This document shows, piece by piece, positions 8,933 to 56,829 of a stretch of 64,000 nucleotides of DNA. The notes under the pieces are model-generated. The model was not told the origin of the DNA and did not search any database. It saw only the letters and a program-made list of their open reading frames with translations. Source of the stretch: Pseudomonas sp. KBW05 (lineage in GTDB: Bacteria > Pseudomonadota > Gammaproteobacteria > Pseudomonadales > Pseudomonadaceae); assembly GCF_003852405.1 (NCBI RefSeq), contig NZ_QAJM01000039.1, positions 86,810-150,809 of the forward strand, read 5' to 3'. The stretch's first letter is position 1; the number at the start of each line of letters is the position of its first letter. A program made the translations under genes and the position numbers.

Positions 8933-9022
8933 TGTGGGAGCGGGCTTGCTCGCGAATGCGGTGGATCAGCCAATGAATCTGTTGACTGACACATCGCATT
9001 CGCGAGCAAGCCCGCTCCCACA
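8933..9022. repeat. REPIN between convergent genes tamB and fimbrial usher
   Basis: Two inverted REP arms (TGTGGGAGCGGGCTTGC at 8933, its complement ending 9022) are separated by about 42 bp. It fills nearly the whole gap between the ends of two convergent genes and ends six bases before the usher stop codon. Confidence 0.92.
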
Positions 9023-9027
9023 TTTAG

Positions 9028-11526
9028 TTATTGGTGTTCCTGAACCTGTGGGGCGCACCTCAAGTCCACCCGCTCATAGTTCAACGCCTTATTGCGTTCT
9101 CCAAGCGCATAGCTAGCCCGGCACTGCTCCTCACCCCACTTGATCACCAACGTACCCGCATCCTGCTCAACCAAGGCCAGCGCCTTGCCGTTGGGATCGG
9201 AAATCGCCATCTGCTTGCCCGCACTGTCTTCCAGCGAAGCACCAAACGGAATCGGCTTGTGCTGTGCATCGAACAGCGCGAACTGCACACGTCGCCCGGT
9301 CTTGCTGACATACCGCGCCAACACCACGGCGCCGCGTCGCGGCACCACTTGTTGGGTGGCGTTGTCGACCTCGATGTCGGCGCCCAAGTCACGGGTGTCG
9401 AGGCTGATCCAGTTGACCCGATAGGGTTGCGCATTGGGCACTACCGCATAGCCATTGCTGCCGGTCTTGGCCCCGGAAAAACTACCGATCTTCACCCCGG
9501 TCACCCCTTCGACTTGCGCCAGCGCAAAGGTCTCGCCCACGGTTTGCCCCAGGTTGATTCCGCCGCCGTGACCCACCACCGAGCCGGCCACATTAAGGCT
9601 CTGCGAGTTGTACCCACGGCCCTGACTGTAACTGGCGCTGATATCTGCCACCGAGGTGCGGGTGCTGAGGTTGGCCGAACCGGTGCTGCCACCGGTGCTG
9701 CTGTTGCCGCCTTGCAGCGAGTAATAGGTGTCGCTGTTTTCGGTCAGGTAGCCGTTGACGCCCACTTGGGTGGTGTCGTTGTTTTTCTGCGTGCTGGAAG
9801 AGACAAACGCCCTCGGCGCGCGCGGGGTCGAACCGATTGGAAACGACAGCGACAGGTTGATCAGGGTGTCATTGTTCGACGGCCCGGCGTTGCCTACATC
9901 CTTGGTGTAGGTGGCGCCAACGTTGTAGCTCACCTGTCCCCAGTAATTGCTGTAGCCCGCCGACAGGCTTTGCGAACCGCCACGGCTCCAGTAGCGCTGG
10001 TCGCTGGCATTCACATAGACGCTGCCCAATTGCTGGTTGCGGCCCAGGCTCTGGTTGACGGTGAGGTCGGTGCGGGTTTTCGAGTTGCCGGTGCGCCGTT
10101 GGCCGTCGCTGCTCAGTTCCTCGACGTGTTCGGTGAGGGTGCGATAGCCCTCGGTGGAGTAACGGTAGGCGGCGAGGGTAAAGCTGGTGTCGGTGCCGGT
10201 AAACGTCTTGGCATACAAGGCACGCAGGCTGTTACCCGTGACGGCCTGGCCGAAGGTGCGGCTGGCGGAGTGGGTCATGTCCAGCGACACGGCGCCGATC
10301 GGCGTGTTGCGCCCGACACCCACGGACATCGCCTGGAAGTCCTGGCTGGCCTGCACGCCAACGATGCCGGACAAGTTGCTGCTGATGCCGTAGGCCAGGG
10401 TGCTGCTGACAAACTGCGGCGACTGTTGCCCGTCGCTGTTGCTGTTGTATTGGCCTGCCGACAGGCTGTATTTGAGTTGGCCTTCGCGCACCATGATTGG
10501 CAGGCTGGAAAACGCCTGCACCGTGACCCGGCGGCTGCCATCGGCTTCGATCACGGTTATTTCCAGGTCGCCGTTGGAGCCGCTGGGGTAGATGTCGCTG
10601 ATCTCGAACGGGCCCGGCGGCACGTTGGCGGTGTAGAGGATGTAGTTGTTCTGGCGGATCTCCACGGTGGCGCTGGTTTGCGCGATACCGCGGATGATCG
10701 GCGCATAGCCGCGCTCGCTGTCGGCGCGCATGCCGTCGTCGGAGCCCAGCTTGACTCCGCGATAGCGCACGCTGTCGAACAGGTCGGCGTCGGAGAAAAT
10801 ATCCCCGGCGCTGAACTGGCCCTTCAACGCGGTCACATCGTGTTGCACGTAGGTGCGGTTGCTCTTGAACGTGCTCGGGCGGTCGGTGCTGCTGTTGAAG
10901 TTCGACTCGTTGCGCAAGCGCCAGCCGCCCAGGTTGATGCCGTTGCGCAGGCCGAGGTTGTTGGACAGGGTGTTTTGCCCCTCGGTGCTGTTGCGGTTGC
11001 TGCTCAACTGGTAGTTGATAAACGCCGCCGACACGCCGGCATCCCACAGCGCCGGGTCCACGTAGCCACGGCGGCCGCGCTCCATGGCGATCTGCGGCAC
11101 ACTCACCAGCAGACGCAGGCGCGGCACGTCGTAGCGCATGCTGGCGCCGGGGATCAACGTGGGCAGGTCGAGGCAGGCGTCAGGGTCGCTGCCTTCGAGC
11201 TTGCCGCTGGCCTGTAGCTTGGCGATATCGACTCCCAGTTGTTGCACCATATCCAGGGTCAGGCAGGCCTCGATCCTGCCGTTGCCGGGGTTGCGTCGGA
11301 AGTCGATATCGCGACGGCCCACCAGGGTTTCGTTGCCATACAAGTCCACCCGGTAGTTACCGGGTAATACGTTGCTACTGGCCAGCAACGATTGCAGATC
11401 GACCGAGGAGGCCGCGCCTTGCAGAAAGGAGGTATTGAATTGTTCATCGCCTTCGGCCTGGCACGCGGTACTGAAACCCAGGGCAACCAGCAGCGGCGAC
11501 CATCCATTGCGCTTGATTAAAAACAT
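9028..11526 (-). CDS. Fimbrial outer-membrane usher (FimD/PapC family)
   Basis: The 832-residue protein has a signal peptide followed by usher hallmarks: FNTSFLQG at the start of the N-terminal chaperone-binding domain (a close match to the F-N-x-x-F-L consensus), SDDGMRADSERGYAPIIRGIAQTSATVEI in the barrel, PPGPFEISDIYPSGSNGDLEITVIEADG in the plug region, and a C-terminal domain with two cysteines (EEQCRASY, VDLRCAP). Ushers form the outer-membrane pore through which chaperone-bound pilins are polymerised. It is the last gene of the fimbrial operon. No adhesin gene follows before the REPIN and tamB. Confidence 0.94.
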   Translation of the reverse strand: MFLIKRNGWSPLLVALGFSTACQAEGDEQFNTSFLQGAASSVDLQSLLASSNVLPGNYRVDLYGNETLVGRRDIDFRRNPGNGRIEACLTLDMVQQLGVDIAKLQASGKLEGSDPDACLDLPTLIPGASMRYDVPRLRLLVSVPQIAMERGRRGYVDPALWDAGVSAAFINYQLSSNRNSTEGQNTLSNNLGLRNGINLGGWRLRNESNFNSSTDRPSTFKSNRTYVQHDVTALKGQFSAGDIFSDADLFDSVRYRGVKLGSDDGMRADSERGYAPIIRGIAQTSATVEIRQNNYILYTANVPPGPFEISDIYPSGSNGDLEITVIEADGSRRVTVQAFSSLPIMVREGQLKYSLSAGQYNSNSDGQQSPQFVSSTLAYGISSNLSGIVGVQASQDFQAMSVGVGRNTPIGAVSLDMTHSASRTFGQAVTGNSLRALYAKTFTGTDTSFTLAAYRYSTEGYRTLTEHVEELSSDGQRRTGNSKTRTDLTVNQSLGRNQQLGSVYVNASDQRYWSRGGSQSLSAGYSNYWGQVSYNVGATYTKDVGNAGPSNNDTLINLSLSFPIGSTPRAPRAFVSSSTQKNNDTTQVGVNGYLTENSDTYYSLQGGNSSTGGSTGSANLSTRTSVADISASYSQGRGYNSQSLNVAGSVVGHGGGINLGQTVGETFALAQVEGVTGVKIGSFSGAKTGSNGYAVVPNAQPYRVNWISLDTRDLGADIEVDNATQQVVPRRGAVVLARYVSKTGRRVQFALFDAQHKPIPFGASLEDSAGKQMAISDPNGKALALVEQDAGTLVIKWGEEQCRASYALGERNKALNYERVDLRCAPQVQEHQ

Positions 11527-11611: not shown

Positions 11612-12355
11612 TTATGGCGATTCTTTATTCAACGTGGCGCGGCTGTCGGCGCTGTTTGAAAGGTGTGCGGTGTATCGGTCTTGTGCGCCATAGTCATTAA
11701 TGCTGCTGAACAACAATGTTGGCGAACTGTCCCGGCTTAGTTGTTTGAGGGGGAACTCTTTTTGTTCGCCGGGCGCGATCATCATCGAATCAAAAGGATG
11801 TTCTTTGACGCCGCCGGCATGCAGGGTGATTTCGGCAATTGACACGTGATACAGCCCCGGGTTGGTCACCACCAGCACCGGCTTGCCGGCACGTTCGGCC
11901 AGGCTCCACATCAGCTCGGTCGGTGCCAGGTAGGCCTCGTTCTTCATGCCCGCAGGTCGGAAGAACACTTTGATGCGCTGGCGCACGGCAAGCTGCAAGG
12001 TGTTCTGCACTTTCGATGCCTGGGGGATTTCCTGCACGTTGAGCCACACCACCGATTCACGGTCGGCGGGCATGCCAGCGCCTTCGTAGATGACCCGCAA
12101 CAGTTGTTGCTCCAGGCCGTTGACCCGAGCCAGGGGCGGGGTGACGGCAAACGGTGCGTTCGGGGTGTTGTCGGTATCGACCCACGACTGGATCAGCACC
12201 GCTTCACCGTTGTTGCGCACGGTGATACCGGCTTCCTTGTGGCTGCCGTCAAAGATCAGGCGTGTGCTGCTCAATGAAATGCCCGCTGTGGCCTGGCTGG
12301 CCGCGAGCAGGCCCAGCAGGCCCATGCAGAGGGACAGGGAGTGACGTTTAAACAT
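11612..12355 (-). CDS. Periplasmic fimbrial chaperone (PapD/FimC family)
   Basis: The 247-residue protein has a signal peptide ending ASQATA-GISL, then the two Ig-like domains of pilus chaperones. Visible are ISLSSTRLIFDGSHKEAGITVRN (strands A-B with the R of the subunit-binding site), the FAVTPPLARV segment, the loop VVWLNVQEIP (the family's WxNxxxIP), and IKVFFRP, where the conserved Lys-Leu/Ile-FYRP strand carries the second binding residue. It would cap pilins in the periplasm and deliver them to the usher. ATG 12355 is used because it begins the signal peptide; upstream codons read through the intergenic hairpin. The gap to the usher is 85 bp. Confidence 0.94.
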   Translation of the reverse strand: MFKRHSLSLCMGLLGLLAASQATAGISLSSTRLIFDGSHKEAGITVRNNGEAVLIQSWVDTDNTPNAPFAVTPPLARVNGLEQQLLRVIYEGAGMPADRESVVWLNVQEIPQASKVQNTLQLAVRQRIKVFFRPAGMKNEAYLAPTELMWSLAERAGKPVLVVTNPGLYHVSIAEITLHAGGVKEHPFDSMMIAPGEQKEFPLKQLSRDSSPTLLFSSINDYGAQDRYTAHLSNSADSRATLNKESP

Positions 12356-13010: not shown

Positions 13011-13070
13011 GTTGTTTTTCCATACAGGGAGTTGAAACAACACGATATAGCGCGGCTGGTTAGTTGGGCA

Positions 13071-13087
13071 TAAGACGATCCTTAGAA
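13071..13087 (-). promoter_or_regulatory. Candidate RcsB box upstream of the fimbrial operon
   Basis: Read on the minus strand, 13084-13071 is TAAGGATCGTCTTA, which matches the enterobacterial RcsAB consensus TAAGAATATTCCTA at 10 of 14 positions. The 15-mer AGACGATCCTTAGAA (plus strand 13073-13087) recurs exactly at 21012-21026, upstream of the hybrid kinase gene. It lies 61-77 bases before the subunit ATG. A possible -10 (TATATC) sits about 21 bases downstream of the box, placing it near a -35 as expected for an activator. Confidence 0.55.
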
Positions 13088-13108
13088 GTCAAAATATCCA
13101 AACAGTAA

Positions 13109-13756
13109 CTAGTTGAACAAGTTGCGCTCGATACAATAAGCCAATAAGTCCCGGTCGCTGCCAACTTCCAACTTGCGCATCGCCGCCACTTTTTGGGTGC
13201 TGATGGTCTTGGCACTTCGGTTCAAGTTTCGGGCGATCTCGTTGACACTTTGCCCACCCACGAATAAACGCAGGATTTCATGTTCCTTGGGCGACAACCG
13301 GGTAAAGCGTTCATTCAAGTCCGCGCCAGACTCGATCACTGATGTGGGCGCCGGCCCGCTGTTGCGAATCGGGTTGCCCCGGGCAATTGCCTTGAGCGCT
13401 GCCTGGATCTCGTCGTGCAACTGGTGCTTCTGGATCACCGCCAATACCCCGAGTTCTTGCAGGCGCGTCAGGATCAACGGGTTTGAGATCATGGTCAGCA
13501 CCAGCACCCGCACGTCGGGGAAGTGCCGAGTCAGGTACTCCACCAGTTTCAGGCCATCACCGTAGGGCGAATCGCCGGGCATATTGAAATCGGTGATCAC
13601 CAGGTCCACGCGGGTGGACTCCAGCAGGCTGATCAATGCGCTGGAGCACACGGCCTCGCCGACTACGCGAAAGCGCTCATTGCGCTCGATCAGCTCCCTG
13701 ACCCCGACCAGCACGATGGGGTGATCGTCTGCGATGACTACGTTGAGGATTTCCAT
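13109..13756 (-). CDS. RcsB-like response regulator (NarL/FixJ family)
   Basis: The 215-residue protein has an N-terminal REC domain with acidic pair DD at 10-11, phospho-acceptor Asp56 in LVITDFNMPG, and Lys109, then a LuxR-type HTH (LSPKEHEILRLFVGGQSVNEIARNLNRSAKTISTQK). The FVGGQSVNEIARNLNRSAKTIS helix region resembles enterobacterial RcsB. P. aeruginosa relatives RcsB and RocA1 regulate cup fimbrial genes, so the adjacent fimbrial operon is the probable target. The gene follows the Hpt-bearing kinase by six bases and should be co-transcribed with it; that kinase is the likely phosphodonor. Confidence 0.9.
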   Translation of the reverse strand: MEILNVVIADDHPIVLVGVRELIERNERFRVVGEAVCSSALISLLESTRVDLVITDFNMPGDSPYGDGLKLVEYLTRHFPDVRVLVLTMISNPLILTRLQELGVLAVIQKHQLHDEIQAALKAIARGNPIRNSGPAPTSVIESGADLNERFTRLSPKEHEILRLFVGGQSVNEIARNLNRSAKTISTQKVAAMRKLEVGSDRDLLAYCIERNLFN

Positions 13757-13762
13757 GGGTGT

Positions 13763-16700
13763 TTATCCAGAGTGAAATGATTCGAGGGCATCGAGTAGAG
13801 CATTCAGTTGAGCCAGGTTCTGCCGGACCTCAAGGGCCAGGGCAGGGGTGATGGCCATGCCGGTCAAGCGGCACTCCAACGCGACAAATGCCGTGGCCAT
13901 GGCGCCCATTTGCACCGCACCGAGGGCGCCGGCCATGCTGTGCAGGTGCTGGGCCACGCCGTTGGCATCGTTCAGGTTCAGCGCCGCCAGGGTGGTGTGG
14001 ACGTCCTGGCGCAGGGTGCTGACAAACAACTCACGCATTTTCGGCGACAGCTGTGGCAGTTCGACGGGCGTCGGCAGGGCGATCTGGCAATGTTGCTCCA
14101 ACTGCGCGCGCAAGGTGGCGAGGTTCAGCGGCTTGACCATCCAGGCGTTCATGCCGACGGCGGCGCAGCGCTCGCCTTCTTCGCGCAGGGCGTTGGCGGT
14201 GATACCGATAATCGGCAGCGTGGCGTCTTGCTGGCGCAGGGCTTCGGTCAATTGGTAGCCGTTCATCACGGGCATGTTGACGTCGGTGAGGACCAGGTCG
14301 AACCGCCCCGGCAGCCATTGGGCCAGGGCTTGTTCGCCGTTGGCGGTCAGCGTCACTGCGCAGCCCAGGGCTTCCAGTTGCTCCTGGATGATCGCCGCGT
14401 TGATCGCGTTGTCTTCGGCCACCAGCACGTGCAGGTTCAGGTCGTGGTGCTTGGCCGACGGCGCGGGGCGGTTGGGGTTGGCGCCTTGCTGCGCCAGGTC
14501 AATCGCCCAGGCCATTGCACGAATGTCATGGGCGTCGACGGCCCAATCTGCTCCCCTGCGTTGCGCGGGGTTCGGCCCGCCGGGGTCGGCGATGACCCGT
14601 GGCCCCGGCCAGTCGGGGCTGTTGGCGGCGGGCAGCAGGTCCACCAGCAACGCCGAGTCGGTCGCGGGTTCCGCTGTCACGAGGCGGCTGTCGAGGCCAA
14701 GGCGGTTGAGCCAGCCCGTGACGTGCTGCGCCAGCTCGGTGACTGGAGCGCGTACGTAGACGGCGGGTGCTCCCGCGCTGAACACGGGACAATCAGCCAA
14801 GTCGCCCGGCACCACTGCTAATGCAAGGTGCAGGGTGAAGCTGCTGCCTAGCCCGGGTTCGCTGACCAGGTTCAACTGGCCGTGCATCAACTCACACAAC
14901 CATTTGCAGATCGCCAGGCCCAACCCGGCGCCGGCCTGGCTGGTGGCATCGTTGACCTGATAGAACGGGTCGAACAGTTGTTGCTGTTGTTCCTGGGAAA
15001 TGCCGACGCCCGAGTCACTCACTTGCCACTGCAGGTTCACCTGGCCGTCCGCCGGTTCCGCCACCCGCACGCGCAGCACCACGCGGCCGTAATCGGTGAA
15101 CTTGATCGCATTGCTCAGCAGGTTGTTGAGGATCTGGCGAATGCGCAGCGGGTCGCCGCGCAGGCGGTTGGGCAGCGTTGGGTCGATGCAGGCATACAGT
15201 TGCAGCCCCTTGGCTTGGGCGAAGGCGCTGTAGGTGCGCACGCTGTCTTCGATCAGCTCCAGCGGGCAGAAGTCCTGGTGTTCAAGGGTCATCTGCCCGG
15301 CCTCGATCTTCGACACATCCAGCACGTCGCTGATCAGTTGAAACAACGTGGCCGAGGAGCGCTGGATGGTGTGCAGGTAATCCTGCTGGCGCGGGGCGAG
15401 TGGGGTGAGGCCGAGTAATTCCAGGGTGCCCAGCACGCCGTACAGCGGGGTGCGGATTTCATGGCTCATGGTCGCCAGGAAGCGGCTCTTGGCCTGGTTC
15501 GCCGAGTCGGCAGCGTGGCGCGCCTCTTCCAGGGCGGCGGCGTCTTCGACATGCCGGGTCACATCATGCAGAGCGCACAGCCAGGCATCCTGGCCCTGAT
15601 AACGGGTGGGCACGAAGGCCACGTGCAGGTGGCGGCCATCTATTTCCAAGTGCGCCTGGCCAGGTTGGGTGGGCGGCTGTTGCTGGAGCAAGTCGATCAG
15701 TTGGCGGGTGTCGTGCCACTGTTGGGCGCGTTGGTTCGCCAGGAGTACGCGGTGATCGTCGCGGCGGATCACGCACAGGCCGGTGGGCGCGGTGTCGATC
15801 ACCGCGCGGCCGAACGCTTCGCTCTCGGCGATACTGGCGTGTGCTTGCTGGGCGGGCAGCACCACCTCGGCGGTGTACCAGCGATTGACCACGCGACTGC
15901 AACCCAGTGCCGCCAGCACCAGGGCCACCAGGCACAGCAAGGGCCACAGCGCGAAATCGAGGAAGCTCGCCATGCTGATGACGTAGATCGCGGTCCAGTG
16001 CTGCGTGCCGGCACTGATCAGCTTGAACACCAGGCCGTCGCGGGTGACGTTGACGCCTTCATGCAGCACCTGGCCAGGTTTTAGGGTGCCCGTCAGGACC
16101 GCGCCGGTGGGCGTGACCAAGGTGAACTCATCGTAGGTCGTCCATTGCATCAACCGCTCGATATTGTTGACGTGCGCCAGTTTCAACAGCGAAGCCACGA
16201 TCACCCGGGGGTTGGCACCCTCGATGTCCAGCGCGGTCGCAGCCAAGTTGATGTCGACGTAAGCCAGCAGGGTCGGCGCGCCGCTGTCATCTGCGTAGGG
16301 TTGCCACTGCACCTGATGCGCTGGCGTGTTTTGCCCGTCCGGGCGCGTGTGCAGCGGGGCCATGGCCTCCACCAGCGCGCCGATCGAGATCTGCCCCGCG
16401 CCGCGCAAGCGCCCGGCGGCGGGCACGGTCACGTCGTAGTTGTCCGGGCCGTTGAGCAGGATCACCTGGGGCGATTGATAGTGCGACGCCGCCCAGAACG
16501 CGCTGTAGTAGGCCGAGAGGTAGGTGCCGAGGGCGAAGACCTTGGGGTATTGGTCGGCGGCGATCTTCTCCGGGTTGATCTTCAGGCTGTAGGGCAGGGA
16601 GAACGGCAGCCCGCGTCCTTCAAAGATATTCGGCCCGGCCTCGGGCAGCGGCTTTTGGATAAACGGCGGCAGCATGGTCGAGGGGTCCAGCTTGTCCTTG

Positions 16701-16930
16701 ATGCTATACCGCGAGATGTCCTGCAGGAAGACTTCCTGTTCGCGGATATTTTCCATCAGCCGCGCGAAGTGGAACTGGAAGGTGTCGTGCTGTTCGTCGA
16801 TTACGCGCTGCACCCCCAGGTAACTGATGCCCAGCAACAGCAGCACCAGGGCGCCGAGCACCATCAGGCCTTTGTTCAGGCGCAACGAATTGCGCGCCAG
16901 CTTCTCCAGGAAGGCGTTGGGATGGGGCAT
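13763..16930 (-). CDS. Hybrid sensor kinase with REC and Hpt domains (RcsC/RocS1-like)
   Basis: From ATG 16930 the protein has 1055 residues. TM1 is at about 21-41, a periplasmic sensor of about 285 residues follows, and TM2 is at 326-348. Then come a PAS-like linker, HisKA with His490 in MSHEIRTPLYG, an HATPase with the G boxes (GAGLGLAI), and a REC domain with Asp in LVLTDVNMPVMNGYQ. It ends in an Hpt domain with His in QHLHSMAGALGAVQ. This is a complete His-Asp-His relay that would feed the RcsB-like regulator encoded next. The frame continues up to a TTG at 17002 that overlaps the EAL gene stop; that start is possible but adds 24 unconserved-looking residues. Confidence 0.9.
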   Translation of the reverse strand: MPHPNAFLEKLARNSLRLNKGLMVLGALVLLLLGISYLGVQRVIDEQHDTFQFHFARLMENIREQEVFLQDISRYSIKDKLDPSTMLPPFIQKPLPEAGPNIFEGRGLPFSLPYSLKINPEKIAADQYPKVFALGTYLSAYYSAFWAASHYQSPQVILLNGPDNYDVTVPAAGRLRGAGQISIGALVEAMAPLHTRPDGQNTPAHQVQWQPYADDSGAPTLLAYVDINLAATALDIEGANPRVIVASLLKLAHVNNIERLMQWTTYDEFTLVTPTGAVLTGTLKPGQVLHEGVNVTRDGLVFKLISAGTQHWTAIYVISMASFLDFALWPLLCLVALVLAALGCSRVVNRWYTAEVVLPAQQAHASIAESEAFGRAVIDTAPTGLCVIRRDDHRVLLANQRAQQWHDTRQLIDLLQQQPPTQPGQAHLEIDGRHLHVAFVPTRYQGQDAWLCALHDVTRHVEDAAALEEARHAADSANQAKSRFLATMSHEIRTPLYGVLGTLELLGLTPLAPRQQDYLHTIQRSSATLFQLISDVLDVSKIEAGQMTLEHQDFCPLELIEDSVRTYSAFAQAKGLQLYACIDPTLPNRLRGDPLRIRQILNNLLSNAIKFTDYGRVVLRVRVAEPADGQVNLQWQVSDSGVGISQEQQQQLFDPFYQVNDATSQAGAGLGLAICKWLCELMHGQLNLVSEPGLGSSFTLHLALAVVPGDLADCPVFSAGAPAVYVRAPVTELAQHVTGWLNRLGLDSRLVTAEPATDSALLVDLLPAANSPDWPGPRVIADPGGPNPAQRRGADWAVDAHDIRAMAWAIDLAQQGANPNRPAPSAKHHDLNLHVLVAEDNAINAAIIQEQLEALGCAVTLTANGEQALAQWLPGRFDLVLTDVNMPVMNGYQLTEALRQQDATLPIIGITANALREEGERCAAVGMNAWMVKPLNLATLRAQLEQHCQIALPTPVELPQLSPKMRELFVSTLRQDVHTTLAALNLNDANGVAQHLHSMAGALGAVQMGAMATAFVALECRLTGMAITPALALEVRQNLAQLNALLDALESFHSG

Positions 16931-16998
16931 CAGAAGGGACAGCCTTTGGACACAATGACCTCGGTGGCAAGCGACGTACGTCAACAGCCGGCTGCGGG

Positions 16999-18186
16999 TC
17001 AATACACGTTTGCCGGCCCGTCATGGGTCAGCAATTGCTGGAACTGATCCGAAGACACGGCGTGGGAGATCAGGAAACCCTGGACCTGAGTGCAGTCGAT
17101 CTTACGCAACAGCGCAAGTTCTTGCGCAGTTTCCACACCTTCGGCCACCACGGTCAGGCCCAATTGGCGCCCCAGGCTGACAATACTGGTGAGCGCCTGG
17201 GCCATTTCCTCGTTGGCGTTGCAGCCCTGCACCAGCGCACGGTCGATCTTCAATTCGGTAAACGGCGCCGACACCAGGTTCATGTACGAACTGTAGCCCT
17301 TGCCGAAGTCGTCCTGGGACAGGCCGAAACCCTTGATGCGCAAGCGGCAGGCGCCGGCGTAGAAGTTGCTGATGTCATCGGGCACCGAGCATTCCATCAG
17401 TTCGAAGCAGATCCGCGCGGGCAGGCCCTCATGGGCGTGGACGAAGGCGAGGATGCGGTCCGGCAGGTCATGGCTGTTGAGCAGGTGGGTGGGCAGGTTG
17501 ACCGACACAGGGATGTCATAGCCCTCTTGGCGCCACGTGGCCTGGGCGGCGATGGCCTGTTCGAGTATCCGCCAGAGCAAGCGTTCTTCCAGGTTGAAGG
17601 CGATCAGCGCGGGCAAGAACACCCCCGGCAGCAGCGTGCCATGCTCGGGGTGAATCCAGCGCACCAGGGCTTCGGCGGCGACGATGCGGCCATTGTTCAG
17701 GGCTTTCTTCGGTTGGAACCAGGCTTGCAGCTCGCCGTTATCCAAGGCGTTCAACAGGCTCTGGCGATCGATGCCGGGCTGGGTTTCGGCCGGTGCCATA
17801 TGGCGCAGCACCTGCAATTGGTCGATCAGGCAGCGCAGGGCGGCGGCATTCACCGGTTTGGAAATCAGCCCGATGACCTTCACTTGCAGGTTGCTCGCCA
17901 CCAGGCTGGCGCCCATCAGCATGCGCCGGGAGGCGGCGCTCATGATCGCCAGCGCCGGTCGCGAGGGTTGCGCGGCCAGGCCCTGGATAAATTGCACACC
18001 GTCCATGCCCGGCATCAACAGGTCGGTGAGCACCAGGTCATAGTCGCGTTTTTTCAAGCAGGCCAAGGCTTCCTCGCCGTCCTTGGCGCACTCCAGGTGA
18101 AAATCCCCCAGCTCGTTGAACAGGTTTTGCAAATACAGGTGTTGGAAGGGATGGTCTTCGACAATCAGGATGCTACAGGGCTTCAT
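16999..18186 (-). CDS. REC-EAL cyclic-di-GMP phosphodiesterase (PvrR/RocR-like)
   Basis: The 395-residue protein has REC (acidic ED at 10-11, Asp55 in LVLTDLLMPG) followed by an EAL domain from about 145. The catalytic set is intact: EAL at 172-174 in AEALVRW, the Asn of SVNLP, Glu of FELMECSV, the DDFGKGYSS loop, the Lys and Asp of LKIDRALV, and Glu of AEGVET. It should therefore hydrolyse c-di-GMP. The known relatives PvrR and RocR lower biofilm formation and fimbrial expression and compete for kinase output. ATG 18186 is used; it overlaps the end of the upstream kinase gene by 14 bases, indicating coupling. Confidence 0.92.
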   Translation of the reverse strand: MKPCSILIVEDHPFQHLYLQNLFNELGDFHLECAKDGEEALACLKKRDYDLVLTDLLMPGMDGVQFIQGLAAQPSRPALAIMSAASRRMLMGASLVASNLQVKVIGLISKPVNAAALRCLIDQLQVLRHMAPAETQPGIDRQSLLNALDNGELQAWFQPKKALNNGRIVAAEALVRWIHPEHGTLLPGVFLPALIAFNLEERLLWRILEQAIAAQATWRQEGYDIPVSVNLPTHLLNSHDLPDRILAFVHAHEGLPARICFELMECSVPDDISNFYAGACRLRIKGFGLSQDDFGKGYSSYMNLVSAPFTELKIDRALVQGCNANEEMAQALTSIVSLGRQLGLTVVAEGVETAQELALLRKIDCTQVQGFLISHAVSSDQFQQLLTHDGPANVY

Positions 18187-20974
18187 AAACGACTCGTTCG
18201 TAGGGAGCCAGGGCACTGAACAAGGCTCGCAGCGTAAAAGGTTTGACCAGGCACTGGTTCATGCCCGCCGCCAGGCACAGGGCGTCCTCACCGCGCAGGG
18301 CGTTGGCGGTGGCGCCGATGATCGGGGTGGTGCAGCCCAGGTTGCGCAGGGCTTCGGCCAGTTCGTAGCCGTTGAGCCTGGGCATGTTGACGTCCGTGAG
18401 CACGATGTCGAAGGCGCCGTCGTGCCAGCGTGACAAGGCTTCTTCACCGTCGCTGCTCAAGACCACGGTGCAGCCCAGCTCTTCGAGTTGGTCACGCAGG
18501 ATCAGTTGGTTGATCACGTTGTCTTCGGCCACCAGGATGTGCAGGTGTAACGGGCGCAGGTCGCGCAGATCGCCAGGCGCCGACGGCAGGGCCACCTGGC
18601 CACCCTGGGCTTGGTGAACCGCTTGTTGGATGGCTTGCAGGTCGTTGAGGTTGACCTGCCAGCCGCCGCCCGTGAACTGCGGGGCAAACGCCCCTTCGCC
18701 GCTGGCGATAACGCGCGGCCCGTGCCAGGGCGCGCTGAATGACGGTTCGATGGGGCCGGGATGCAGTTCCAGGAGCACGCCGTTGTCGGCCAGCGCCAGG
18801 CAGGACGGCACGCCGATCTGCGGGCGGGCGCCCCAGCGGCGCAACCAGCCACAGGCGCTCTCGGCCAGTTCGCGTACCGGCGAAATCACGTAGACAATCT
18901 CCGCCGCCAGCTCGTTCAGGTGCGCAGCCGTTGCACTGGCGCAGGGTTGCTCCAACGGCAGGGTCAGGGAAAAGCTGCTGCCCAGTCCGGGCTCGCTGAC
19001 CGTGCGCAGGGTGCCGTTCATCAAGTGGGTCAGGCGCAGGCAGATAGGCAGGCCGAGACCGGTGCCCGCGACCACGTTGGTGTTGCCCTCGGTCTGGTAG
19101 AACGGCTCGAAAATCAGCGCCTGGTCGGCCGGCGCAATGCCTTTGCCGGTGTCCGAGACTTGCCATTGCAGGCACACCCGCTCGCCTTCGCGGCTGAGCA
19201 ACTTGACCCGCAACACCACGCGCCCGGAGTCGGTGAACTTGACCGCATTGCTCAGCAGGTTGTTGAGGATCTGCCGCACGCGGCTGACGTCGCCGATCAG
19301 CCGTTCCGGCACGTGCGGGTCGAGGCAGGCGTACAGGTGCAAACCCTTGCTGTGCGCGGCGGCGGCGTAGCCTTGTACCGCCTCCAGCACCAAGGCGGGC
19401 ACGGAGAATTCGCTCAACTCCAGGGCCAGTTGCCCGGCTTCGATCTTGGACACGTCCAGCACATCGCAGATCAGTTGCAGCAAGGTCGCGGAGGAACCTT
19501 CGATGGCGCGCAGGTAGCTTTTCTGTTGCGCGTCCAGGCGTGTGCGGGCCAGCAGTTCGAGGGTGCCGAGCACGCCGTAGAGCGGGGTGCGGATTTCATG
19601 GCTCATGGTGGCGAGGAACAGGGTCTTGGCTTCGTTGGCGGTATCGGCGGCCTGGCGCGCCTGTTCCAGCGCCGCTTCGATCTGGGTGCGCGCGCTGATG
19701 TCGCTGAAGGCGCAGAGCAACACGTCTTCACCTTTGTAGCGCGTGGGCGCGCAGCTCAGGTACAGGTGGCGGCCATCGGCGGTCTCGAAGTAGTCCGTGA
19801 GGCACGGCGCGGTGGGGTCGAAGGCGCCATTGATCCAGCCAGCGCCGAGTTGCGCGCTGCTGTGGCCGAGCCAGTGTTGGGCCAGGGTGTTTTCCAGCAC
19901 GATTTGGCCGTCGGTGCGGCGCAGCACGCAAAGGGCCACGGGGGCGGTCTGGATCACGTCGCGGCTGAACAGCTCGCTTTCCACCAGCGCCTGGATGCGG
20001 TGGATCGCGGGTTTGATAAAGCGGTGCTCCAGGCGCCGGGTCAGCAGGCACACCAGGCTGATGCTCAGCAGGCAGAACAGCAGCGCACCGCTGATTTGCG
20101 GCCACAAGGCCCAGAGCACCGCGCGCAGGTCGATGGAGTAGGTGAGTTGCCAGTCCGAGGATTTCAGCTGTTTGCGTAACACCAATTGCTCGGGCAACCA
20201 GCCGTTGCCGACAAAGCCAAAGAAGTCCTGTTGCCGCAGCAGCGGCAGGTTTTGCCCGGGCGGGGGCTTGTGGCTGTTGGTGAACAGCGGCATGCCCTGG
20301 GCATTGAACATGGTGAACTCACCGGCGCTGTGGTCGTTGAGGGCATTGGAGACTTCGCGGTCGTCCATTTCCAGGCCGAGCCAGCCGGACTCCGGGTCGC
20401 GCTCGTCCAGGCGAATGAAGATGTACAACTGTGAGTGGCCGTCGCTGGCGTGGGTCAGCCAGAGTTCGCGCAAGGCGTCCTGATGTTTGAGGGCTTGCAG
20501 TTGGCCGAGCATCGCCGGGGGGAAGTCGGCGGCCGCCGGGGTGGTGTCGTACAGCCGCGACACCTGGGCTGCGCTGCTGACGTACAGCAGGTTGAGCTGC
20601 TTGGCCTGCAAATAATCGCGCATGCGCTGGGTCAGCCAGATGCTCCATTGCCGGCCCGGCGTGTGCCCCAGCAGCAGGCGGATTTCTTCATCGGAGACCG
20701 GCAGGCTCACTTCGGCCTTGCGTGTGGCCGACAGGCTGAGGCTCTCCAGCAGCGCCTCGCGGGTGGTGAAAAAGGTATGCGCCTCGGCGATGGCGCTGCT
20801 CATGTAGCTGCGCCGCTGGGAGACTTCATTGTTGAAGGTGAACAGCAAAAAGCTGTACACGCCGCCGAGAATGCCCACCAGCAGCACCAGGGCAAACACG
20901 CGCAGAAGGCGGCGTGCGGCATAGGGCGTGGACAGGACCGGGCTGATTTGATGGAGGACGTTCTTTAATCGCAT
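18173..20974 (-). CDS. Hybrid sensor kinase without Hpt (PvrS-like)
   Basis: From ATG 20974 the protein has 933 residues: TM1 at about 25-45, a periplasmic region of about 240 residues, TM2 at 288-311, PAS-like segment, HisKA with His459 in MSHEIRTPLYG, HATPase (GTGLGLPI), and a C-terminal REC (LHILVAEDNVIN, LVLTDVNMPRLNGYE). It stops right after the REC with LRALFSALAPYERVVYEAL and has no Hpt, unlike its paralogue downstream. HisKA segments of the two kinases are nearly identical, so they arose by duplication. The Shine-Dalgarno is weak. An in-frame TTG at 21046 would run through the candidate RcsB box and is not favoured. Confidence 0.9.
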   Translation of the reverse strand: MRLKNVLHQISPVLSTPYAARRLLRVFALVLLVGILGGVYSFLLFTFNNEVSQRRSYMSSAIAEAHTFFTTREALLESLSLSATRKAEVSLPVSDEEIRLLLGHTPGRQWSIWLTQRMRDYLQAKQLNLLYVSSAAQVSRLYDTTPAAADFPPAMLGQLQALKHQDALRELWLTHASDGHSQLYIFIRLDERDPESGWLGLEMDDREVSNALNDHSAGEFTMFNAQGMPLFTNSHKPPPGQNLPLLRQQDFFGFVGNGWLPEQLVLRKQLKSSDWQLTYSIDLRAVLWALWPQISGALLFCLLSISLVCLLTRRLEHRFIKPAIHRIQALVESELFSRDVIQTAPVALCVLRRTDGQIVLENTLAQHWLGHSSAQLGAGWINGAFDPTAPCLTDYFETADGRHLYLSCAPTRYKGEDVLLCAFSDISARTQIEAALEQARQAADTANEAKTLFLATMSHEIRTPLYGVLGTLELLARTRLDAQQKSYLRAIEGSSATLLQLICDVLDVSKIEAGQLALELSEFSVPALVLEAVQGYAAAAHSKGLHLYACLDPHVPERLIGDVSRVRQILNNLLSNAVKFTDSGRVVLRVKLLSREGERVCLQWQVSDTGKGIAPADQALIFEPFYQTEGNTNVVAGTGLGLPICLRLTHLMNGTLRTVSEPGLGSSFSLTLPLEQPCASATAAHLNELAAEIVYVISPVRELAESACGWLRRWGARPQIGVPSCLALADNGVLLELHPGPIEPSFSAPWHGPRVIASGEGAFAPQFTGGGWQVNLNDLQAIQQAVHQAQGGQVALPSAPGDLRDLRPLHLHILVAEDNVINQLILRDQLEELGCTVVLSSDGEEALSRWHDGAFDIVLTDVNMPRLNGYELAEALRNLGCTTPIIGATANALRGEDALCLAAGMNQCLVKPFTLRALFSALAPYERVVYEAL

Positions 20975-21011
20975 CCCGGCACTGTAGGGACGGGGGAGTG
21001 TAGGAGAAATC

Positions 21012-21026
21012 AGACGATCCTTAGAA
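21012..21026 (-). promoter_or_regulatory. Second copy of the candidate RcsB box, upstream of the PvrS-like kinase gene
   Basis: AGACGATCCTTAGAA is an exact 15-base match to the element at 13073-13087 and has the same orientation relative to transcription. It lies 38-52 bases before the kinase ATG. On the minus strand a TACACT at about seven bases past the box could be a -10, which would put the box over the -35. The match suggests the signalling operon is controlled by its own RcsB-like product. Confidence 0.5.
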
Positions 21027-21064
21027 CCGTTCCGCTGAAATACCAAGCAAGCTAATTATTCCAT

Positions 21065-25797: not shown

Positions 25798-25823
25798 TTC
25801 CGGGAGTGTGGAATACAATCCCC

Positions 25824-25913
25824 TGTGGGAGCGGGCTTGCTCGCGAAGGCGGTGGTTCAGTCGATACATAAGTTGACTGACACACCGCCTTCGCGAGCAA
25901 GCCCGCTCCCACA
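25824..25913. repeat. REPIN between the efflux operon and the T6SS island
   Basis: Inverted arms (TGTGGGAGCGGGCTTGC at 25824 and its complement ending 25913) enclose a 40-bp spacer. The doublet and its leading bases are almost identical to the REPIN at 37374-37463, so the T6SS island is bracketed by a matched pair. Confidence 0.92.
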
Positions 25914-25951
25914 GTTGGATCGGTGTTCACATCAGCAACTGACGCTATAGG

Positions 25952-26051: not shown

Positions 26052-28445
26052 ATGGCTATCAGCGTATTGCCGAGTACTTTCTTTGATCACAGCCGCCACA
26101 AACTCAGGGTCTACGGTGTCGACCCCTTGCTCGACGTGCTGGCCTTTCACGGCGAAGAGCGGCTGAGTCATCCTTTCAAGTACCAGATCGAATTCACGTG
26201 CACCGAGCGTGACCTCGCCGCCGACCAAATATTGGGCAAGCCCGCGACGTTCAGTCTGTTTCACGTGCCGCCCAAGCCTGTGCTGGTTTGGCAGCCACCA
26301 CCAGAAAACCAACCACTTCGCACCCTGGCCGGGGTTGTCACCGGCTTCAAGCGCCTGTCTGGCTCCAATGATGAAGGCCGCTACGAAATCACCCTGGAAC
26401 CGCGCTTGGCGCTGTTGGCGCAGGGCAAGCAATTTCGCATTTACCAGCAGCAATCTGTACCGCAGATCGTCGAACATATCCTGCGTAATCGTCACGGTTA
26501 TGAGGGGCAGGATTTTTACTTCCAACTACTGCGCGACTATCCCAGGCGCGAGCAGGTCATGCAGTACGACGAAAGTGACCTGGCCTTCATTTCGCGGCTG
26601 CTGGCCGACGTTGGCATCTGGTATCGCTTTGTTCACGATGAGCGATTGAATTTTGATGTCGTGGAGTTTCACGATCACCAGCGTTACTACCAGTTCGACG
26701 TCGAGTTGCCCTATCGTCCGCCCTCCGGGCTGAGCAGCGATCAGGACTGCGTGTGGAAACTGCAAACCCACCATCAGGTTGTAGAGCAACACGTCAACGT
26801 TCGCGCCTATCAATACCGGGATGCCAATGCCTGGCTCGACGGCGACATCGACCAGACCCGTGGTGCCACCACCACTTATGGCGAGGCTTACCACTACGCC
26901 GAACCCTACAGCGTGCTCGGGAACAGGCTGGACACTGACGAGGACCTGCCCACCGAAAGCGGCTACAGCTACGCGCGCCTGCGCCATGAACGCTACCTCA
27001 ATAACCAGACCCGGCTCAGCGGGCTCAGCACCAGCGCAACGCTCGCGCCAGGCCAAGTCCTGACCATTACCGACGGTGCGCCCCAGGCGTTTATGCCGAG
27101 GGTGGTGATCATCGAGCTGAATGCCCGGGCTGCCCGTGATCGCAGCCTCGAGGTCAGCTTTGGCGCCATCCCCTATTCGGAGACCGTGTGTTTCCGACCA
27201 CCGTTGCTACCCAAGCCAAGCATCGCCGGTACTGTCCCGGCCCGTGTGTCCAACCCGGGGGTGAACGACCCTTACGCGCACATCGATCTGGAGGGGCGCT
27301 ACAAGGTCAATTTCCTGTTTGATCGCGACACTTGGAAGCGCGGCGAAGAAAGTCTGTGGCTACGCCTTGCGCGGCCTTATGCGGGCGACACGCACGGTTT
27401 GCACCTGCCACTGATTGCGGGCACCGAAGTGGCCGTGGCGTTCGAGCAAGGTGATCCGGACCGCCCCTACATCGCCCACGCCCTGCACGACAGTGAACAC
27501 CCTGATCACGTCACCCTGCGCAACTACAAACGCAATGTGCTGCGCTCGCCGGCCAACAACAAATTGCGCATGGATGACACCCGGGGTGAGGAACACATCA
27601 AGCTCAGCACCGAATACAGCGGCAAGAGCCAGCTAAACCTCGGTCATATCGTGGATGCCGGAAAGAAAAAACGCGGCGAGGGGTTTGAACTGCGCACTGA
27701 CGGCTGGGGCGCGGTGCGGGCCGCGAAGGGCCTGCTGATCAGCGCGGATCAACAGAGCAAAGCCTCTGGCGCGGTCTTGGTGATGGACCCGGCCACGCAG
27801 CTGATTCAGGGTGCTGCGCAGCAAATTGCCGACTGGCAGGCAATCGCCCAGGCCCACCGAAGCCCTCGACCGTCTCTCAACGGTTTGCAGCAGTTGCAGG
27901 CCGACGCAAAAGACCTGGCAGCGCCCGTCATCCTGCTCAGCGCCCCCCAGGGAATTGGCGCGGTTACGCCGTCCAGCCTGCTGCTCAAAAGCGGCGACGC
28001 GCTGTACCTGCAAAGCCACGACGACATCCATCTGGCCGCCGCCGAGCAACTCTCGGCCCACGCCAACAGAGGTATTTCCCTGCTCGCTCAGCAGCAAGGC
28101 ATGCGCCTGGTCTCGGGCAAGGGACCGCTGGAAATCGAATCCCACGGTGATTTGCTGAACTTGATCGCACAGCAGGACATCAGCGTGCAGTCGGTGCAGG
28201 GGCAAGTGCACCTGACCGCCAGGAACGGCATCACCCTGGGGTGTGGCGGCGGTTACCTGCGCATCCACCCGAGTGGCGCAATCGACATCCACAGCCCCGG
28301 CAAGTTGCTCCTCAAGGGGCAGCATGTGTGGGAGGGGCCTGCGGGCCAGGAGTTTGCGTTGCGGGAGTTGCCGCAGTCGGTGTGTGAGGACTGCCTTAAG
28401 AGAGCCCGCGCAAAGGCCATCACCCTTTTGATGCGTGAAGGTTGA
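26052..28445 (+). CDS. vgrG: Type VI secretion tip protein VgrG
   Basis: The 797-residue protein has the gp27-like N-terminal part (LDVLAFHGEERLSHPFKYQIEFTC at 27-50, QVMQYDESDLAFISRLLADVGIWYRF in the middle), the gp5-like OB domain near 400-480 (GRYKVNFLFDRDTWKRGEESLWLRLARPYAG), and a C-terminal DUF2345 beta-helix over about 590-745 (ISLLAQQQGMRLVSGKGPLEIES). It forms the trimeric spike that carries effectors. The C-terminal extension has no obvious enzyme domain, so the cargo is probably the Tle1-type protein loaded through the adaptor encoded next. ATG follows AGGGAT. Confidence 0.95.
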   Translation: MAISVLPSTFFDHSRHKLRVYGVDPLLDVLAFHGEERLSHPFKYQIEFTCTERDLAADQILGKPATFSLFHVPPKPVLVWQPPPENQPLRTLAGVVTGFKRLSGSNDEGRYEITLEPRLALLAQGKQFRIYQQQSVPQIVEHILRNRHGYEGQDFYFQLLRDYPRREQVMQYDESDLAFISRLLADVGIWYRFVHDERLNFDVVEFHDHQRYYQFDVELPYRPPSGLSSDQDCVWKLQTHHQVVEQHVNVRAYQYRDANAWLDGDIDQTRGATTTYGEAYHYAEPYSVLGNRLDTDEDLPTESGYSYARLRHERYLNNQTRLSGLSTSATLAPGQVLTITDGAPQAFMPRVVIIELNARAARDRSLEVSFGAIPYSETVCFRPPLLPKPSIAGTVPARVSNPGVNDPYAHIDLEGRYKVNFLFDRDTWKRGEESLWLRLARPYAGDTHGLHLPLIAGTEVAVAFEQGDPDRPYIAHALHDSEHPDHVTLRNYKRNVLRSPANNKLRMDDTRGEEHIKLSTEYSGKSQLNLGHIVDAGKKKRGEGFELRTDGWGAVRAAKGLLISADQQSKASGAVLVMDPATQLIQGAAQQIADWQAIAQAHRSPRPSLNGLQQLQADAKDLAAPVILLSAPQGIGAVTPSSLLLKSGDALYLQSHDDIHLAAAEQLSAHANRGISLLAQQQGMRLVSGKGPLEIESHGDLLNLIAQQDISVQSVQGQVHLTARNGITLGCGGGYLRIHPSGAIDIHSPGKLLLKGQHVWEGPAGQEFALRELPQSVCEDCLKRARAKAITLLMREG

Positions 28446-28460
28446 TCAGGAGATCGTGAA

Positions 28461-29210
28461 ATGGCAGCACCTATCCCATGGCAAGACCAGATCGAGCACG
28501 TATGTGCCACCGCTGGTGTGCACTACGTAGATCTGTTGTTTGATCAGGCCGCCTGGCACACCGACCTTACCGGGGCGCTGGAGCAAATAAGGCCAGCGAT
28601 CCCTTGGTTCTCACTGTTCACGGCAACCCCCGAGGAACACATGCTGGACCAGGCGCCCCTATTGATGCGCCTGGACTTGACCCATTGGCGGCATAAAGCC
28701 TGGTTGGAGGAACTGCTGACTCACGGCGCAGCCGACGCACGCGTGTTGGTGGTGATCTCGCCACTGGCCTTTGAAACCCTGAGTCACGCGCTGCGATCAC
28801 TTTCGCAAATCCGCTGGGGTGGTAAGGCTGGCCTGTTGCGTTACTACGACCCGCGCAGCTTTCCCTCATTGATGTCTTCGATTTTTACCGACGAACAACG
28901 CGCTGAGTTTCGGCAACTGGCTTTTTTTTGGAGCTGGTTTGATCGAGATGAGCAAGTGCAGTGGCTCAAGGGACACGCGTCGAGTGGTAAGAGCGCCGTT
29001 CACGTTTCACCTTTTCTGGAAATGAGCGACGAACAGTTCGAGTTGATGGGGTGTATCAGCGATGCGCAGGAATTAATGAACAGCGGAGAGTTTCATCAAG
29101 CACTTGGAGGCCGGGAGCAGCGTTTTTCTTTGTTCTACTCATTCGCCTTGGAGGCCAGTCGGGAAAATTACTTTGGTGATTTTAATGAGTATGTAAGGAG
29201 CAGGTTATGA
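28461..29210 (+). CDS. DUF4123 adaptor (T6SS effector chaperone)
   Basis: The 249-residue protein shows the DUF4123 pattern: hydrophobic strand HYVDLLFDQAAW near the N-terminus, HWRHKAWLEELL, and the characteristic LLRYYDPRSFPSLMSSIFTDEQRAEF segment. Members (Tap-1/TEC type) bind both VgrG and the cognate effector and load the effector on the spike. Position directly after vgrG and ahead of the effector fits this. The ribosome site AGGAGA is clear. The stop overlaps the first immunity gene in an ATGA junction. Confidence 0.88.
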   Translation: MAAPIPWQDQIEHVCATAGVHYVDLLFDQAAWHTDLTGALEQIRPAIPWFSLFTATPEEHMLDQAPLLMRLDLTHWRHKAWLEELLTHGAADARVLVVISPLAFETLSHALRSLSQIRWGGKAGLLRYYDPRSFPSLMSSIFTDEQRAEFRQLAFFWSWFDRDEQVQWLKGHASSGKSAVHVSPFLEMSDEQFELMGCISDAQELMNSGEFHQALGGREQRFSLFYSFALEASRENYFGDFNEYVRSRL

Positions 29211-29728
29211 GATTGAAGAGCTGCTTGCTTTGTTTTGGTTTTGTGGGGTGCGGCCTGACGGCTTTATTGTTATTGGGGTGTACGTTCTCTGAAAATAAGA
29301 TGGTGGCCGGGAATATAGCAGCGATTAATCATGTTGAAGGTACTGCGATTAATTGGTTTTCGGTGAATGGCTATAGAGCGCACGGCGGAGGGGGGAGTTC
29401 GTGTTGCATTATTATGCCGGTTAAGTGGCGGCCGGGGTTGGAAGTGGAGGTTGAGTGGGAGGTTGATCCGAATAGCGATGCTTCTACGCCTCCGTTAGGA
29501 ACGGAAGAGTTCAAAGCCTTTATGGTCAAGCATAAATCCAATTACCGACATTACAGCGCAGTCGTTGATGTTCCTGAGTGGCCAGAAAAAAAATCTTGTG
29601 ATCTAAAGGTGCATTTTTTAACTTGCAATCGCGTTGCGGTTACTACTGCTTGTGCGATGTATGGTCGACCAGATTATCCGATCAGAGAGCCTAGATATGC
29701 AAAGGAGCCAGTTGTATGTACGAAGTGA
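29207..29728 (+). CDS. DUF3304 lipoprotein, probable Tle1 immunity protein, copy 1
   Basis: The 173-residue protein has a lipoprotein signal with lipobox LLLGC (Cys25) and a DUF3304-type body: GTAINWFSVNGYRAHGGGGSSCC, then VKWRPGLEVEVEWEVDP and a C-terminal DVPEWPEKKSCDLKVHFLTCNRV. DUF3304 lipoproteins are the known periplasmic immunity partners (Tli1) of Tle1 phospholipases. The gene is visibly more AT-rich than vgrG and the efflux genes, which suggests separate acquisition. It overlaps the second copy by 13 bases. Confidence 0.82.
   Translation: MRLKSCLLCFGFVGCGLTALLLLGCTFSENKMVAGNIAAINHVEGTAINWFSVNGYRAHGGGGSSCCIIMPVKWRPGLEVEVEWEVDPNSDASTPPLGTEEFKAFMVKHKSNYRHYSAVVDVPEWPEKKSCDLKVHFLTCNRVAVTTACAMYGRPDYPIREPRYAKEPVVCTK
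29280..29469 (+). repeat. Direct repeat, first copy (core of immunity gene 1)
   Basis: This 190-bp block is repeated at 29864-30053, offset 584 bp, with about a dozen base differences by eye. Similarity falls sharply outside it, both toward the signal peptides and toward the C-terminal halves. Confidence 0.85.
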
Positions 29729-37366: not shown

Positions 37367-37373
37367 AGTCCCC

Positions 37374-37463
37374 TGTGGGAGCGGGCTTGCTCGCGAAGGC
37401 GGTGGTTCAGTCGATACCTAAGTTGACTGAACCACCGCCTTCGCGAGCAAGCCCGCTCCCACA
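37374..37463. repeat. REPIN after the T6SS island
   Basis: Inverted arms start at 37374 and end at 37463. The sequence including the leading CCCC and most of the spacer is nearly the same as at 25824-25913. It lies between two convergent units, the island and lpxH. Confidence 0.92.
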
Positions 37464-56685: not shown

Positions 56686-56756
56686 CATTCACCCTTTGTG
56701 TCGACTGACCCGCCGCATTCGCGAGCAAGTCGAATCGTCGCACCGCCGCTCCCACA
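56652..56756. repeat. REPIN with insertion in right arm, overlapping a coding end
   Basis: The left arm starts at 56652 and contains the stop codon of the monooxygenase gene (TGA at 56683-56685). The right arm is interrupted: GCGAGCAAG is followed by about 15 extra bases (TCGAATCGTCGCACC) before CGCTCCCACA ends at 56756. Confidence 0.88.
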
Positions 56757-56829
56757 GTTGATCGGTGTCGATCCAGAAAATCCAGCCAGCGGACCACCGC
56801 ACGCTTGACTACCAATAGGAGTAATCCCT

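Follow-up and report, generated by a model that had tools for sequence, protein, structure and literature searches.

The closest described relative of the system considered here is the PvrSR/RcsCB-cupD system of Pseudomonas aeruginosa PA14, which is encoded on the pathogenicity island PAPI-1 (PMC2696094, PMC3842833). According to the accessible parts of these reports, PvrS is a kinase that acts upstream of PvrR, and RcsC, acting upstream of RcsB, has both phosphorelay and phosphatase roles. RcsB activates the adjoining fimbrial operon cupD, for which a putative RcsB site near -75 of cupD1 is essential, the GAA at -78 to -76 being crucial (PMC3842833). Overproduction of RcsB induces pvrR, pvrS, rcsC and rcsB; PvrR raised by this circuit promotes dispersal, and the data point to dispersal upon rcsB induction (PMC3842833). 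The putative RcsB sites named in the accessible text lie at cupD1 and before PA0034, PA3714 and PA1468, with none at pvrS. A related locus, with an exact 15-base repeat in front of both its fimbrial (cup) operon and its kinase operon, is found in a 64,000-nucleotide stretch of the genome of Pseudomonas sp. KBW05 (GCF_003852405.1, contig NZ_QAJM01000039.1, positions 86,810 to 150,809), referred to below as the window. With a probability of about 0.83, this repeat forms the central part of an RcsB-dependent promoter unit of class II, placed near -42, that would drive both the cup operon and the pvrSR-rcsCB operon.

The window encodes the same four regulators as PA14, and its genes run, all on the minus strand, in the order pvrS, pvrR, rcsC, rcsB, fimbrial subunit, chaperone and usher. 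The PA14 cupD1-5 genes are opposite in orientation to their regulators (PMC2696094), whereas the window has only subunit, chaperone and usher genes, colinear and on the same strand; a five-gene cup cluster running counter to the regulators, as in PA14, is not present there. A further difference is that neither a leaderless pvrS messenger RNA (mRNA) nor an unlinked adhesin gene carrying the unit is mentioned in the accessible parts of the PA14 sources. The box and the feedback loop are not new as such, being largely published for PA14. The initial annotation of the window, aware of no defined RcsB-type box for pseudomonad cup systems, overlooked the cupD1 site. It also proposed a closed circuit in which the regulator activates the fimbriae and its own signalling genes; this is probably right and had already been reported for PA14, where the circuit is not purely positive, since it raises PvrR (PMC3842833).

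Two other systems are of interest. The enterobacterial RcsAB/RcsB box, found at flhDC and cps, is likewise an imperfect inverted repeat (TAAGA-N4-TCTTA), and the K180 residue of its regulator is conserved in the Pseudomonas protein. The Pseudomonas form of the box, TAAGRATCGTCTKAT, differs in having a central CG and in being locked to a -10 element at a fixed spacing; moreover, the S184 contact is not conserved and there is no RcsA gene in this locus. The control of P. aeruginosa cupB and cupC by RocS1-RocR-RocA1 follows a similar logic, in which kinases, an EAL regulator and a LuxR-type regulator act on fimbriae (PMC3842833 and PMC2696094, accessible parts). It is a separate system, likened here by its logic.

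A box and a -10 element at fixed spacing

The 15-mer AGACGATCCTTAGAA occurs exactly at 13073-13087 and 21012-21026, in both cases on the plus strand and in the same orientation relative to the two minus-strand operons, as was originally described. With up to three mismatches the only further place in the window is 52613-52627, and with up to two mismatches the whole genome (6,517,586 bases) has the 15-mer solely at these two sites, while a reversed control pattern matches once. An exact repeat of this length is nevertheless unremarkable on its own. The window contains 43 maximal direct repeats of at least 15 bases, whereas 20 Markov simulations gave 3.75 on average and between 0 and 9 in single runs; many of the 43 derive from REP-like elements or from two paralogous kinases. 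Because such repeats are common in the window, the case beyond chance rests on position, on the fixed spacing to the -10 element and on conservation in relatives.

Related loci were collected by PvrR homology and not by the motif. The best 58 PvrR matches in 200 genomes of the genus (47 places over the cut-off and 11 below) were joined by the top 80 of 152 named loci, and of the resulting 138 loci, 119 with distinct pvrR DNA were kept. Counts for pvrS refer to the 111 loci in which a PvrS at 50% identity or better is encoded on the same strand, and counts for cup to the 72 loci in which a subunit, also at 50% identity or better and on the same strand, is located no more than 700 nucleotides (nt) from rcsB. 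In every stretch, the match with the highest score was called the box, a choice that inflates both score and information, and the reversed pattern in the same stretches served as the control. The -10 element played no part in locating or anchoring the box, and column frequencies leave out two pvrS loci that score below 11.

The promoter unit that emerges consists of the box TAAGRATCGTCTKAT, 22 bases, and a -10 element TANNNT. In front of the cup subunit, the core scores at least 13 of 15 in all 72 loci, while the reversed control reaches 12 in one. In front of pvrS, it scores 15 in 72 loci, 14 in 18, 12 or 13 in 17, and 11 or less in four, so that 107 of 111 loci reach at least 12, compared with none for the control. 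Scores of 11 are best regarded as background, since the reversed pattern attains 11 in 13 cup stretches and 16 pvrS stretches. Absence of the element from orthologous loci, which the annotation had named as grounds for abandoning the idea, is thus not what was found, and a box-like element before both operons, resembling RcsB and RcsAB sites, is conserved at both promoters. The start of the box is followed, exactly 37 positions on, by a strict TANNNT in 70 of 72 cup and 94 of 111 pvrS loci, and in none of either set when the anchor is the reversed pattern. Over all loci, the mean information per column at cup and pvrS, respectively, is 1.75 and 1.61 bits in the box, 0.38 and 0.29 in the spacer, and 1.37 and 0.92 in the -10 element; anchoring on the reversed control alone yields 0.71 and 0.44 bits for the box. 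Relatedness does not explain the gap between box and spacer, because the spacer and the flanks share the same ancestry.

In the window, the cup promoter has the box TAAGGATCGTCTTAT at 13070-13084 (minus strand) and a -10-like TATCGT at 13042-13047, occupying positions 37-42 from the box start. The pvrS promoter has the box TAAGGATCGTCTGAT at 21009-21023 (minus strand), followed by a -10-like TACAGT at 20981-20986, the last base of which lies 6 nt before the ATG. The cup and pvrS promoters of the relatives have no conserved -35 hexamer in common, and a scan with the sigma-70 consensus finds no promoter on the minus strand at either site; this is the result expected for activator-dependent promoters. 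The middle of the box comes to lie at about -42, which is the usual position of a class II activator. The two promoters are not recent copies of each other, since their flanks are identical at only 12 of 45 positions on the upstream side and 6 of 22 on the downstream side.

The genes served by these promoters correspond to a CupD-type locus. The pvrS-like hybrid sensor kinase (18173-20974, minus strand, as are all genes listed here) has HisKA, HATPase_c and receiver domains in Pfam, and its position and order are as in PA14. PvrR (16999-18186), with receiver and EAL phosphodiesterase domains, is an equivalog of NCBIfam NF052596 (715.8 bits against a cut-off of 580). The rcsC-like unorthodox kinase (13763-16930, with an inferred start codon) has HisKA, HATPase_c, receiver and Hpt domains; Pfam places the Hpt domain in the open reading frame (ORF) 13763-17002 and reports none in the ORF 18173-21046, so the order pvrS-pvrR-rcsC-rcsB, with a PvrS lacking and an RcsC possessing Hpt, is that of CupD-type loci. 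Between the two sites, as the annotation had it, lies the rcsB-like response regulator with a LuxR/GerE helix-turn-helix (13109-13756), the presumed reader of the box. The fimbrial operon, assigned by Pfam, comprises the major subunit (PF00419, 12426-13010), a periplasmic PapD-type chaperone (11612-12355) and an outer-membrane usher (9028-11526). There is no adhesin gene downstream of the usher in the cup operon, where the next long gene-like frame is on the other strand, and the slot upstream of pvrS is filled by other-strand reading frames.

In the E. coli RcsB-DNA structure, as described in the accessible part of PMC5829831, K180 reads bases, S184 makes a second base contact, and the RcsB complex binds the half-sites TTAGGAA and TCTAAGA. 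The window copy TTCTAAGGATCGTCTTA resembles these half-sites. Taken as TAAGRATCGTCTKAT at 12 of 15 or better, an inverted repeat of RcsB half-sites is present at 72/72 cup and 107/111 pvrS promoters. The window protein is a homologue of enterobacterial RcsB and not an equivalog, with 91 of 203 aligned residues identical to the RcsB chain. All of 108 RcsB orthologues have the equivalents of K180 and of R177, T181, S183 and K186, which contact phosphates; the equivalent of Q185 is found in 106 and that of K154 in 89 (R in 19), while the K187 equivalent is mostly I or V, and that of T169 mostly S or N. These features suggest that the box is most likely read by the locally encoded RcsB. The annotation had also given the complement of the 15-mer a score of 10/14 against the RcsAB consensus, which we take to be TAAGAATATTCCTA; the figure holds for the cup copy, while the pvrS copy scores 9/14.

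Some of the other repeats in the window belong to REP-like inverted elements of the TGTGGGAGCGGGCTTGCTCGCGAA type at 163-238, 1684-1796, 8943-9025, 25819-25917, 37369-37450 and 56665-56760, which account for part of the repeat count. Two tandem paralogous small ORFs at 29207-30318 have common blocks of up to 50 identical bases and stand downstream of an ORF at 26052-28445 that we take to be VgrG-like.

The predicted pvrS transcript

The copy of the 15-mer at 21012-21026 falls inside the mechanically longest pvrS ORF, which opens with a TTG at 21046. The conserved start is the ATG at 20974, and the site is therefore upstream of the pvrS gene. The distance from the start of the box to an in-frame ATG or GTG start of pvrS is 49 in 90 loci, 50 in 16 and 48 in one, which together make up 107 of the 111. 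In 95 of these 107, the -10 element ends 6 nt before the start codon, and in 68 of them it contains an in-frame stop, which excludes an upstream pvrS start in those loci. Transcription from a -10 element of this kind begins about 7 nt downstream. Given the 6-nt gap and this distance, the transcription start would fall on the A of the ATG (20972-20974, minus strand), a prediction that draws on the -10 spacing and on the conserved N-terminus. At cup, the distances from box to start range from 72 to 119 in all three frames, so this mRNA should have a leader.

The pvrS mRNA is thus probably leaderless, with its start at or beside the A of the ATG. The window itself is among the loci in which the pvrS frame is open upstream, to the TTG at 21046, and for this reason its leaderless assignment rests on the relatives. 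A pvrS promoter unit with a -10 element 6 nt from the ATG appears to be new with respect to the work on PA14. That the box might be coding sequence at pvrS, read in frame from the TTG at 21046, was considered and rejected, since in 79 of 107 loci the 48 nt preceding the ATG include an in-frame stop, and the cup copies occur in all three frames. Chaperone genes in two further loci, L286 (401-450) and L277 (3001-2952, minus strand), also begin exactly 49 bases after a box, with an imperfect -10 element, and the leaderless layout may recur outside pvrS in these genes.

The accessible literature, mostly non-subscription and without supplements, yielded no pvrS box, no leaderless pvrS and no unlinked adhesins under this control. 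Searches of the same literature on leaderless mRNAs, unlinked tip adhesins, and pvrS or rcsB outside P. aeruginosa gave no matching report. A transcription start map of PA14 (PMC3460626) has neither the word leaderless nor pvrS in its accessible main text, and in the part of an HT-SELEX atlas available (PMC8041468), RcsB and cupD appear only in reference titles. As to a PA14 sequence for alignment, the plasmid collection gave only eight distant matches (<60% identity), the one from P. aeruginosa being annotated as rocR.

Adhesin genes and the distribution of the unit

With up to two mismatches, the core occurs at eight places in the KBW05 genome, and the reversed control at five. Four of the eight places have TANNNT at the exact spacing, namely cup, pvrS and two unlinked adhesin genes on contigs 1 and 6. 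Both adhesins have a C-terminal Fimbrial domain, and the two genes are the only homologues of that adhesin found in the genome (E 0.001). In the contig 6 gene (336482-337502; L124, L209), the frame is interrupted shortly after the signal region, and the remainder is readable in another frame. An adhesin homologue is present in 28 of 33 relatives. Thirty adhesin loci of the relatives were examined together with the two from KBW05, making 32, and among homologues of at least 48% identity over at least 270 residues, box (at least 12/15) and -10 element occur in 14 of 14, the two from KBW05 included.

The unit is also found next to the regulators. An extra linked unit within 2.4 kb upstream of pvrS is present in 53 of 110 loci, where it precedes an adhesin gene in 25, a chaperone gene in 25, pvrS itself in two and no long frame in one; the opposite strand of the same regions has six units. 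It therefore appears that the unit marks genes for fimbrial adhesins or chaperones, whether linked to the locus, as in about half of the relatives examined, or unlinked, as in KBW05, and this association appears to be new. The unlinked adhesins are likely to be co-induced with the cup operon. It may further be conjectured that they are mounted on these fimbriae.

Across the genus, the 15-mer with up to one mismatch is found in 28 of 200 genomes and the reversed control in 19. When the genomes are split by PvrR, the 15-mer is in 20 of 46 that have PvrR over the cut-off versus 8 of 154 that do not (Fisher p 3e-9), and none of those eight has a -10 element at the spacing. In 33 PvrR-bearing genomes, the core with up to one mismatch gives 105 matches and the reversed control one. 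Together with the two sites in the KBW05 genome, this shows that the element is not scattered at random; random occurrence was what the annotation had said would count against it. The matches comprise 31 at pvrS, 29 at cup and 45 elsewhere than at the pvrS and cup of the main locus. Surroundings were fetched for 38 of the 45; the other seven are in L062, L064, L065, L091 (twice), L107 and L210.

Twelve of the 38 precede a gene for a fimbrial-domain or PapD-type protein. The -10 element is exact in L283, L284, L285, L287, L296 and L304, and shifted, imperfect or missing in L272, L277, L286, L295, L297 and L302; the link in L284 is weak, because the gene begins 998 bases from the box. Exact -10 elements also occur in L288, before a YadA-type trimeric autotransporter adhesin, and in L274, before a type VI secretion gene of the ImpA/VasJ type. 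Each was seen in a single genome and could be either a regulon member or a product of chance. Of the remaining fetched matches, 11 fall within a reading frame, and the others, without an exact -10 element, look accidental. Among the seven others, three precede adhesins (L210; the same site in L065/L214; the same site in L064/L216), one (L107) belongs to pvrS in a second locus, and three are extra copies near pvrS (L062, L091).

The L107 locus (G171 contig 1, 4931095-4950264) is the second PvrR locus of its genome and the more diverged one; its pvrS is preceded by a box of its own, and boxes also precede a fimbrial subunit, with no -10 element at the spacing, and an adhesin, with one. In L091 (G062), several boxes lie near the locus on both strands, among them extra copies that lie up to about 320 bases upstream of pvrS and have no -10 element at the spacing. 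The same locus with both boxes (TAAGGATTGTCTGAT, at 7465 and 15610) is found in Achromobacter insolitus (L196), presumably a betaproteobacterium, where the cup -10 element is imperfect. This suggests transfer or a wider spread.

Competing explanations and a model of the circuit

A number of observations weigh against an RcsB-driven unit of this kind. Four of the 111 pvrS loci fall within the range of the control, with scores of 11, 11, 9 (L100) and 8 (L116, where the PvrS match begins only at residue 315), and 17 of 111 have no strict -10 element at exactly 37, several of these being shifted by one. The loci are related, so that the counts are not independent events. The window protein scores 178.7 bits with the RcsB equivalog model PRK10840, below its cut-off of 235, and the equivalent of S184 is T in the window and A in 64, T in 43 and S in one of the 108 orthologues. 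The genus-wide signal of the 15-mer is visible only after the split by PvrR. In addition to the 45 off-locus matches themselves, 11 of the 38 fetched are inside a reading frame and only eight have an exact -10 element. As for the adhesins, only two of 18 weaker or partial homologues (L223, L227) have a box of at least 13/15 with an exact -10 element within 400 nt; L225 has an 11/15 box with a -10 element, and L222 (14/15) and L230 (15/15) have a box without an exact one. Finally, the scarcity of Shine-Dalgarno sequences at pvrS is not discriminating, the other genes of the locus also being weak by a crude test, and was not used as support.

One alternative is that the box is a genuine co-regulatory site whose reader is not the adjacent RcsB but some other protein, for instance another response regulator of the LuxR type. 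In its favour, S184 is not conserved, and these genomes presumably encode further RcsB-like proteins. This explanation is improbable, however, since the 15-mer accompanies PvrR, the eight PvrR-less genomes that have it lack the -10 element, and the site resembles the RcsB half-sites; in PA14, moreover, cupD needs both RcsB and a box, as far as the accessible text shows. A different possibility is that the pvrS unit is real while pvrS is not leaderless, the main transcript coming from further upstream or translation starting downstream of the ATG at 20974. Linked relatives do have a same-strand adhesin or chaperone gene upstream, from which read-through is possible, and in the window itself the frame is open upstream. 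Such an arrangement is unlikely, though not negligibly so, given that 106 of 111 loci have a distance of 49 or 50 between box and ATG while the distance at cup is widely spread, that the -10 element usually ends 6 nt before the ATG, and that conserved coding sequence begins right at this codon.

The repeat might also be a signal in RNA or for translation, for example a Shine-Dalgarno sequence with a mini-ORF or a GGA site for an RsmA-type protein, and in the window the cup copy does contain AAGGA followed by an ATG. Such a signal common to the two mRNAs is very improbable and was rejected: an A in column 4 abolishes the GGA at 35% of the pvrS sites and 64% of those at cup, some loci lack the ATG that follows the cup copy, and the box is upstream of the -10 element and hence outside the predicted RNA. 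The abundance of direct repeats in the window and the paralogy of the two kinases might point to a chance repeat or to recent duplication of one promoter. This is scarcely credible and was likewise rejected, in view of the unrelated flanks, the conservation of box and -10 element in more than 100 loci well above the reversed control, and the restriction of the 15-mer to two places in the genome.

The RcsB-dependent unit thus remains the preferred reading, and a model can be built on the observed sequence, conservation, spacing and distribution, in which RcsB binding, the transcription starts, leaderless translation and adhesin assembly are the predicted elements. Phosphorylated RcsB would bind the box as a dimer centred near -42 and recruit RNA polymerase. 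Its targets would be the cup subunit-chaperone-usher operon and the pvrS-pvrR-rcsC-rcsB operon, which makes RcsB and the kinases, and by driving its own operon RcsB would close a positive loop with a brake built in through the c-di-GMP phosphodiesterase PvrR. The pvrS transcript, beginning at or beside the first base of the start codon, would lack a leader, and tip adhesins missing from the three-gene cup operon would be co-induced from elsewhere through the same promoter unit. Because the loop also raises PvrR, its outcome may be a pulse, or switching from attachment to dispersal and back, and not a simple lock-in. Taken as a whole, a scattered fimbrial regulon, with a fixed RcsB unit, a leaderless pvrS and interchangeable co-induced tips from linked or unlinked adhesins on one assembly operon, has slightly better than even odds.

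The core circuit was previously known from one P. aeruginosa pathogenicity island, and it now has a promoter grammar common to many Pseudomonas species, which provides a candidate cis element through which the PvrSR/RcsCB operon may induce itself. A kinase mRNA that is leaderless throughout these species would offer a simple test case for the leaderless translation of a feedback regulator. The promoter grammar can be searched for in genomes and may reveal which fimbrial components go with one another, among them orphan adhesins overlooked when gene neighbourhood is the only guide.

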